A DNA stretch of 64,000 nucleotides. Origin: Synergistaceae bacterium (lineage in GTDB: Bacteria; Synergistota; Synergistia; Synergistales; Aminobacteriaceae). This document shows, one piece after another, positions 2,481 through 4,825 of the stretch. The notes beneath the pieces are model-generated. The model had not been told where the DNA came from. It made no database searches and saw only the letters and a list, made by a program, of their open reading frames with translations. The position numbers were made by a program, and so were the translations under genes. Position 1 is the first letter of the stretch; each line of letters begins with the position of its first letter. The DNA is taken from assembly GCA_017540085.1 (NCBI GenBank), contig JAFYBQ010000037.1, forward strand, positions 124,001 through 188,000, written 5' to 3'.

Positions 2481-3230
2481 TTACCGTCTCAATACTTTTG
2501 AGAGAAATTCTACCGTACGCGGCTGTTTCGGGTGATTGAACACCTCATCCGGCGTACCCTGCTCGCTGATTATTCCCTTGTCGATAAATAATACCCTGTG
2601 CGCGATTTTGTACGCGAATCCCATCTCATGAGTTACAAGATACATAGTCATTCCCAAGTCGGCAAGCTCCTGCATAACGTCAAGAACTTCACCGATCATT
2701 TCAGGGTCAAGCGCGCTCGTAGGCTCATCGAACAAAAGCACCTCTGGATTCATAGCCATAGCCCGGGCGATTGCGACTCTCTGCTTCTGCCCCCCCGATA
2801 ATCTGTCAGGCCATTCGTCTATCTTGTCGGCAAGTCCAACGCGGGCTAGGAGTTCGGCGGCTCTCACATCAGCTTCTTCCTGCGTCATGAGTTTTAGGTC
2901 GACAGGGGCAAGCGTCAAATTTTTCCTCACCGTCAAATGCGGGAAAAGGTGAAAATGCTGGAACACCATGCACATTTTACGCCGTACAAGATTTATGTTG
3001 CATGAAGGGGACGTAATATCTTCTCCGTTGAATGTGATTGTCCCGGACGTAGGCTCCTCCATTCGGTTAAGGCAGCGGAGGAATGTTGACTTTCCTGACC
3101 CTGAAGGCCCTATCACCGCGATTTTCTCGCCCTTCACTATTGATGTGCTTATTCCGTTTAGGACGTTAAGAGTCCGGCCGTCCTGAAGCACGAAAGTTTT
3201 GCGAAGGTCTTTCACTTCAATAACCGCCAT
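2481..3230 (-). CDS. Polar amino-acid ABC transporter, ATP-binding protein (GlnQ/HisP type)
   Basis: Hydrolyses ATP on the cytoplasmic face to drive amino-acid import with the permease 5 bases upstream and the binding protein beyond it. Walker A is GPSGSGKST (about residues 42-50), the signature is [14 protein letters not shown], Walker B is [13 protein letters not shown], and the switch histidine lies in LVTHEMGFA. The ERMEEPTSG-type loop and 249-residue length are typical of the GlnQ/HisP/ArtP group. It is the last gene of a three-gene operon, in order binding protein, permease, ATPase. The substrate cannot be fixed from the ATPase. Confidence 0.93.
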
Positions 3231-3234
3231 GTTA

Positions 3235-4038
3235 TTACCTCCTGCCCCGACTGAGCCACTGCTCCAGCTTTTTCACGAGCTTTGACAGTACCATTACCAT
3301 AATCAGATAGATTATCGCAACCATCACAAGCGGCTGTGAATGCTCAAGCGTCAGTGCCTGAATGTTCTGACCCGCCCGCGTAAGGTCATCAATCCCGATG
3401 TACCCGGCTATTGATGTCTCCTTCAGCAGTGCTATAAACTCGTTGAACAGCATCGGCACAACGTTGCGTAATGCCTGCGGTAATATAACGTGCCTCATTG
3501 ATGAGCCGTATGTCAGTCCCAATGACCGCGCCGCCTCCATCTGTCCCGCGTCAATCGACTCAATTCCGCCCCGGAAGATTTCCGCCACATATGCCCCGGA
3601 GTTAAGACCGAACGCAAGAATCGCAATGTACTGCGTGTTGAGATCCCTCGCTGAGGCAAATATAGTGAAGTTCCATATCAATAGCTGAACCATCGCAGGA
3701 GTCCCACGCAAAACGGTGATATATGTCTCCGCAAACTTGTTCAGAATCGGAATATGCACCCCGCCTTTGTACGCCACACGTATAACGCTCAGTATCAGCC
3801 CGACAATCACGCCGATTACAGTCGCGCCGGCCGTCATGAAGAGAGTCGACTTCAGGCCGTCAACAAGCATCATATAGCGGTCATCCTTCACGAAATTCTG
3901 ATAGAAACGCCTGTTGAAGTCCGCCCACGCCGAGGCCGTAAAGAATCCCGAACGCCACAGCAAATACAGCAGGAACGCTCCGACAATCCACAGCAGAAAA
4001 TCTCCGCGCCCCGCTCCGGGGTATGTCTTATTTCGCAT
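3235..4038 (-). CDS. Polar amino-acid ABC transporter, permease (HisM/GlnP type)
   Basis: Integral membrane subunit forming the amino-acid translocation path. The 267-residue sequence has an N-terminal hydrophobic segment ([14 protein letters not shown]), further membrane helices, and the EAA loop ([20 protein letters not shown], then [12 protein letters not shown]) that docks on the ATPase. The [12 protein letters not shown] segment is typical of the HisM/GlnP family. The ATG at 4038 lies inside the 3' end of the binding-protein gene (11-base overlap), which suggests tight translational coupling. The single permease gene implies a homodimeric channel. Confidence 0.92.
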
Positions 4039-4825
4039 AGTCTTCCGCCCGGATTAACGCTACCTGCTTCACGCCCGTAACGTAATTTTCGGAGAAGTCC
4101 ATATTCTCTTTGCGTTCGTCTGTTACGGTGATTCCCGCGCAAATCATATCAACTTTTCCTGTTGAGACGGCTGTGGGAAGAGCGTCAAAATTCATGTTGA
4201 TGATTACGAGTTCTTTGCCGAGCTTTTTGGCGATGTGGGCGCACATTTCGATGTCGATTCCTATGAAGCCGCTTCCGACTTTCAGCTCATAGGGGGCAAA
4301 TCCTGCCTCTGTCCCTACATAGAGCTTTCCGCCTTTCGCACCCTTGCTGAAGTCTATATCCTCCGGCTTGACCGCTGAATAGTCCCCGCCGATGTACTTG
4401 GCGAAAATGGTATCCATTGTTCCGTCAGCTTTCATTTCCGCAAGAATCTTGTTGACCTGTGAGACTAGCTCCGTATTTCCCTTCCTGAAGCCGATTGCGT
4501 AGCTCTCAACGCTCATAGGCTCGTCCATAATCGCGAGGCCGTCAATCTCATTCACGAATCTTTTCGCGGGCATTTCGTCCATGATTACGGCGCGGATTTT
4601 TCCCTGCCTTAGAGCCGCAACAGCGTCAACATATTTCTCGTATGTCGTGAGGAGATCCGCTTTCTTGTCGCCAAGCAGATCCTCGGCTATGTACTGGCCT
4701 GTTGTGCCTCTCTGAGCCGCGAGCCTTTCGCCTTTGAGCTGATCCGGGGACTTGAGCTTTTCACCCTCAGCAGACGCACAAACGCACAGCATTAACACGA
4801 ACATAAGCGCAAGAAACTTTTTCAT
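4028..4825 (-). CDS. Amino-acid ABC transporter substrate-binding protein with circularly permuted domain order
   Basis: Periplasmic binding protein of the SBP_bac_3 (GlnH-like) family, with an N-terminal signal peptide (residues 1-19, ending CASA). The order of the fold is unusual. Residues 25-147 (SPDQLKGERLAAQRGTTG through GTMDTIFAKYIGG) match what is normally the second half of such proteins. Residues 166-258 (GGKLYVGTEAGFAPYE, GFIGIDIEM, GKVDMICAGITVTDERK, MDFSENYVTG) match what is normally the first half. Each half is present once and total length (265) is normal, so this looks like a genuine circular permutation. It is first in the operon and overlaps the permease gene by 11 bases. Leader: TATAAT, TTTTCACA, GGAAGG, ATG. 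Confidence 0.9.
   Translation of the reverse strand: MKKFLALMFVLMLCVCASAEGEKLKSPDQLKGERLAAQRGTTGQYIAEDLLGDKKADLLTTYEKYVDAVAALRQGKIRAVIMDEMPAKRFVNEIDGLAIMDEPMSVESYAIGFRKGNTELVSQVNKILAEMKADGTMDTIFAKYIGGDYSAVKPEDIDFSKGAKGGKLYVGTEAGFAPYELKVGSGFIGIDIEMCAHIAKKLGKELVIINMNFDALPTAVSTGKVDMICAGITVTDERKENMDFSENYVTGVKQVALIRAEDYAK

Follow-up and report, generated by a model that had tools for sequence, protein, structure and literature searches.

The locus analysed here raises the question of whether the substrate-binding protein (SBP) of an otherwise ordinary amino-acid ABC transporter can carry the two halves of its fold in reverse order and, if so, how such a protein would work and arise. The locus lies near the start of a 64,000-nucleotide stretch of DNA (the window) from a Synergistaceae bacterium. 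An earlier note, made from the letters of the window alone, had placed a 265-residue SBP_bac_3 protein on the minus strand at 4028-4825 and had claimed that its second half precedes its first, with each half present once. The gene has the position, strand and length given there, with its ATG at 4825 and its stop at 4028, and phmmer, Pfam and NCBIfam searches agree on the half order.

Half order and operon

In a phmmer search of the PDB sequences, residues 10-105 of AncQR (4zv1) aligned with residues 166-260 of the query and residues 106-232 with residues 21-146; the other printed PDB alignments had the same two-block swapped pattern. Each half on its own scored ~66 bits against AncQR, which excludes chance as the source of the half matches. 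The tandem protein GlnP (6h30) covered query residues 17-250 with the C-half of domain 1 and then the N-half of domain 2, which is exactly the behaviour expected of a permutant. PF00497 (SBP_bac_3) scored 115.4 bits (gathering cut-off 26.4) in two stretches, and the best-scoring of these, residues 169-261, sat on the start of the model. The best NCBIfam models, those for lysine/arginine/ornithine and for glutamine, likewise matched in two stretches, with scores far below their cut-offs.

Profiles of the separate halves found one C-half (residues 28-145) followed by one N-half (165-259). As a control, the same profiles were run on ordinary SBPs from this and related genomes, and gave the N-half and then the C-half. 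In the canonical SBP_bac_3 order the lobe-1 half comes first and is followed by a short N-to-C joint; the 265-residue protein departs from this and, because its half order is reversed, is classed as a permuted variant rather than as a canonical member. A truncated tandem protein was ruled out, as each half is present in a single copy and the signal peptide stands ahead of the swapped half.

The SBP, a BPD_transp_1 permease and a GlnQ-like ATPase are encoded in one operon (Table 1), which is the composition of a type I amino-acid ABC importer. The reading adopted here, with a probability of about 0.9, is that the SBP_bac_3 fold has undergone natural circular permutation in this protein, which serves as the SBP subunit of the three-gene importer. 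Its signal peptide has no lipobox in the window copy. The normally C-terminal half contains lobe 2, the second hinge strand (ESYAIGFRKG), the C-terminal helices of lobe 1 and Asp83 (D83); the normally N-terminal half contains the core of lobe 1, Arg238 (R238) and the first hinge strand (VKQVALIRAED), which is now the C-terminal strand. Beyond the operon, the plus strand of the window encodes a probable type II restriction-modification pair (547-2440), comprising a Tsp45I-family endonuclease and an N6/N4 DNA methylase in overlapping genes.

Table 1. Coordinates of the SBP, its segments and its operon partners in the window
Feature	Position	Strand	Basis or remark
SBP_bac_3 protein, circularly permuted, 265 aa	4028..4825	-	phmmer, Pfam, model
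Sec signal peptide, residues 1-19 (...CVCASA, then EG)	4769..4825	-	sequence inspection; residues 1-20 low pLDDT; cleavage site putative
Residues 20-146, normally C-terminal half	4388..4768	-	phmmer 21-146 to AncQR 106-232; profile 28-145
Junction linker GGDYSAVKPEDIDFSKGA, residues 147-164, 18 aa	4334..4387	-	old C-terminus joined to old N-terminus
Residues 165-265, normally N-terminal half	4031..4333	-	phmmer 166-260 to AncQR 10-105; profile 165-259
Permease (BPD_transp_1)	3235..4038	-	Pfam; 11-bp overlap with SBP gene; order kept in orthologous loci
ATPase, GlnQ/HisP type (ABC_tran)	2481..3230	-	Pfam, NCBIfam, orthologous loci

Predicted fold and hinge

The structure was predicted with AlphaFold2 from an input of 36 natural permuted sequences. 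A model that failed to close into one protein had been named in the earlier note as grounds for rejecting the permutation; the prediction was a single confident fold (mean pLDDT 92.7, pTM 0.84), with a well-defined linker (147-164; pLDDT 86-95). Along the chain the model places lobe 2 (from residue 24), a hinge strand (105-114), the lobe-1 C-terminal helices (118-146) and the linker, followed by the lobe-1 core (167-244) and a terminal hinge strand (249-259). Closure of the lobes and the number of crossovers were read off the confidence values, the secondary structure and homology with known SBP topology. On that basis the cut would coincide with the first hinge crossing, leaving one covalent crossing between the lobes instead of two, with strand 105-114 as the putative sole link.

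In an ordinary type II SBP two strands run between the lobes, and hinge motion is central to ligand capture and hand-over. A conserved and apparently working SBP with one crossing would thus be a natural experiment on how much hinge is required. The question is directly testable, since there are ordinary and permuted proteins that are ~56% identical and lie in similar operons (L184 and L159, respectively).

The halves might instead pair between two chains, so that the working unit would be a strand-exchanged dimer. The sequence is compatible with such an arrangement, and exchange is conceivable for a chain cut at the hinge, but the monomer model is confident throughout, the linker included, and each unit of the tandem relatives described below keeps an internal linker of fixed length. 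A dimer of this kind is accordingly considered very improbable, and the monomeric permutant is retained.

With both Foldseek and VIA-align, the first-ranked PDB match to the model was OpuAC of Bacillus subtilis (2b4l; Z 13.5 over 216 residues at 4.3 Å, residues 17-265 of the model on residues 5-264 of the chain). Natural circular permutation among the glycine-betaine-binding proteins, 2B4L among them, was reported in 2008, with ProX and molybdate-binding proteins as the permutation partners of OpuAC (PMC2395249), and this accounts for its top rank. OpuAC is therefore, like the window protein, a type II SBP permutant with the same chain order, matched end to end; it differs in sequence family and ligand class, and the two are 14% identical in the structural alignment. 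The window protein does not belong to the OpuAC family by sequence, PF00497 being the only Pfam family matched at E ≤0.001. The permuted topology was thus already known in a sister SBP family.

SBP_bac_3 chains ranked lower (Z ≤11.6, mostly over ~175 residues at 9-16% identity). The aligners are order-dependent and cannot place a permuted model on GlnH in its true register; these lower-ranked matches probably reflect the internal pseudo-symmetry of the fold. GlnH, HisJ, ArgT and other SBP_bac_3 proteins are homologous to the window protein in both halves and share its binding-site residues and operon type. They have the opposite half order, whereas the window protein lacks the N-to-C hinge joint and has a new 18-residue joint between the old termini.

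Conservation, selection and tandem relatives

The permease, the ATPase or both lie directly downstream of the SBP gene in 23/23 loci that carry the closest orthologues in other genomes, one of them from a ‘Clostridiaceae’ MAG (metagenome-assembled genome); where one of the two is not tagged, this may reflect a contig end or the simple motif test that was used. A survey of Synergistota orthologues for the same half order had been proposed in the earlier note, and the swapped order recurs, with at least one permuted protein in each of the 25 same-genus genomes tested. Strong matches (E ≤1e-75) were present in 49 of 188 Synergistota genomes. These represent 5 of 63 genera, every one of which belongs to the same family as the window. 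Most of the relatives that have names are rumen MAGs labelled ‘Synergistaceae’ or ‘Fretibacterium’, and metagenome assembly seems to be the source of most of the genomes concerned. The ‘Clostridiaceae’ MAG carries a closely related operon (L095), with 61% identity and a lipoprotein signal.

An assembly error that swapped the halves, named in the earlier note as a second ground for rejection, would be conceivable in a genome of 42 contigs. It is refuted by the recurrence of the swapped order in dozens of separately assembled genomes: 25/25 of the same genus, further genera and the clostridial MAG, at 61-86% identity. The genome of the window itself encodes two permuted paralogues, 58% and 42% identical to the window protein, and all three share one cut site and linker. 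The chance of a misassembly is regarded as negligible.

For each half, comparison with the three closest orthologues tested gave a dN/dS ratio of ~0.04-0.12, which indicates purifying selection on both. In positions aligned with AncQR, all of 36 permuted proteins keep R238 and at least 90% of them keep D83, so the arginine and aspartate expected of an amino-acid-binding SBP_bac_3 protein are both present; R238 is taken to be the carboxylate-binding arginine of the family and D83 its amine-binding aspartate. A degenerating, non-functional remnant would show the permuted order too, if a tandem gene had lost its outer halves. The low dN/dS in both halves, the conserved binding residues, the confident fold and a frame and operon intact across the genus make a remnant hardly credible. 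The proposal in the earlier note that the permuted protein is probably functional gains support from these sequence data, namely the conserved operon, the purifying selection and the retention of R238 and D83.

Just a few SBPs of this genome have the ordinary half order. Besides the three paralogues it encodes about eight divergent orphan proteins with swapped halves; L011, L012, L014, L017 and L018 (contigs C21, C7, C37 and C36) are such orphans with a shortened N-half, several of them in tandem clusters. The TEER-type arginine motif is absent from them, so any ligand they bind is probably a different one. In the same genome (G000, contig C11) a single open frame (L009:1-1902) joins a sodium:alanine symporter (Na_Ala_symp) to an SBP_bac_3 domain of ordinary order, and the next gene is sensor-kinase-like.

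Outside the window, contig C6 of this genome encodes a protein of 2260 residues (L021:4644-11426) with a signal peptide, eight C-half/N-half units and a permease domain; the next gene is a 364-residue ATPase with a C-terminal extension. A TnpB-like gene (OrfB_IS605/Cas12f1-like TNB; L021:3282-4577) lies just upstream. Tandem arrays of permuted units are common across the genus, and the fused protein has 2, 6, 7, 8 or 12 units in its other genomes, the twelve-unit form having 3249 residues (G005, L253:3857-13603). Fused relatives with one to three units occur in clostridial genomes, and one with four in a MAG labelled Methylobacter; the fused protein L260 has two units.

Within the units of these tandem relatives the C-to-N gap was 17.7 ± 1.0 residues (n=75), and the 18-residue linker of the window protein has this fixed length. 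The N-to-C gap between units was 18.2 ± 6.0 residues (range 10-49, n=62), a difference in variance with a Levene p of 1e-10; in ordinary SBPs it is the N-to-C gap that is fixed, at 8.5 ± 1.0. The first half in a complete array is a C-half and the last an N-half. The fixed C-to-N gap, the variable gap between units and the ends of the arrays together indicate that the folding domain is the permuted C-half plus N-half unit.

GlnPQ of Lactococcus lactis has two tandem domains of ordinary order in GlnP (PMC8025302). The relatives of the window protein resemble it in their permease fusion, tandem domains and GlnQ-like ATPase partner, and differ in carrying 1-12 domains in permuted order; the window protein itself, being encoded separately from its permease, is not a fusion of this type.

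A working scheme can be proposed from these features. The fixed linker of ~18 residues would join the old termini, which lie next to each other in lobe 1, and the new termini would open at the first hinge strand. Each lobe would then be a contiguous segment (lobe 2 at ~24-104, lobe 1 at ~118-259), and only strand 105-114 would cross covalently between them where two strands normally do. Like an ordinary amino-acid SBP, the secreted protein would clamp an alpha-amino acid between its lobes, with R238 contributed by lobe 1 and D83 by lobe 2, and the closed clamshell would dock on the permease dimer, with ATP driving uptake. As to its origin, an SBP gene duplicated in frame and in tandem could have lost its outer halves, as the earlier note proposed, or a single unit could have been cut out of a permuted array. 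We infer the ligand, the transport function and the route of permutation.

Spread, cut sites and origins

Restriction of the permutants to Synergistota was ruled out by their occurrence in the clostridial phylum, where 13 of 348 genomes had a match at E ≤1e-35, one of them (L158) an ordinary tandem protein. At the same threshold matches were more frequent in one clostridial order, with 36 of 146 genomes, although half-matches and proteins of ordinary order are counted among these. Searches of viral contigs and plasmids found no relative. The solo permutants of the clostridia fall into three groups by cut site: at or near the hinge (L155, L156, L159-L162), ~24 model positions into the C-half (L163, L164) and ~62-68 positions into it (L157, L242, L246-L251). 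A permease comes after the permutant in each of the contexts L199-L204, and an ATPase follows in all of these contigs except one.

A maximum-likelihood tree was built from 67 domains with their halves restored to the ordinary order. L159 and L161 were sister to the ordinary protein L184 (support 100/100, 56-57% identity), and L156 with L163/L164 grouped with the ordinary L174 (100/98). Forcing all permuted domains into a single clade was rejected (delta lnL 154, AU p 1.9e-5). Read cautiously, the tree suggests at least three independent origins of permutation in the family; the group of L156, L163 and L174 could represent two events, or one and a reversion. The nesting of L174 among permutants would also be compatible with a single ancient permutation followed by reversions to the ordinary order throughout, but rejection of the single clade, the different cut sites of the lineages and the sister relationship of the L159 group with L184 make this improbable.

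In the best tree the window clade stood apart from the fused clade, which speaks against origin of the window gene by excision of a unit from an already permuted array rather than by direct duplication and loss. Joining the two clades was not rejected (AU p 0.29), and permuted arrays are common in the genus, so excision is held as a tentative possibility.

It seems likely that permutation has recurred among amino-acid SBPs, in at least three events at no fewer than three cut sites, yielding working SBPs of which one class has a single crossing, and that one permuted lineage was expanded into chains that are fused to a permease and hold up to twelve domains. With repeated permutation at different sites, the family would be a rare case in which the origin and survival of circular permutants can be studied in replicate. 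Were the permease to act as a dimer, the twelve-domain chains would give up to 24 binding domains per transporter. To our knowledge, no ABC importer has larger substrate-binding arrays than these many-domain fused relatives would have.

The statement in the earlier note that the family holds no characterised example is matched by a search of the open-access full-text literature (subscription papers lie mostly outside its coverage), in which no natural permutant of an amino-acid SBP was found; the related glycine-betaine-binding proteins had already been reported as permuted (PMC2395249). As far as that search goes, permutation in the amino-acid-binding family and its recurrence with different cut sites are new. 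The same holds for the finding that permutants predominate over other SBPs in one bacterial lineage, and for the permease fusions with many units. Such permutants are easily overlooked, because annotation that is blind to half order labels them plain SBP_bac_3.

Two of the fused chains call for a remark. The four-unit permuted transporter of the MAG labelled Methylobacter (L132, JAQTLI010000017.1) was the sole match in its phylum (1/349), the other 348 genomes searched having none, and its contig may for that reason be misbinned. A clostridial protein of 910 residues (L264:3722-6451) is a single chain that contains permuted SBP, permease and ABC ATPase domains.
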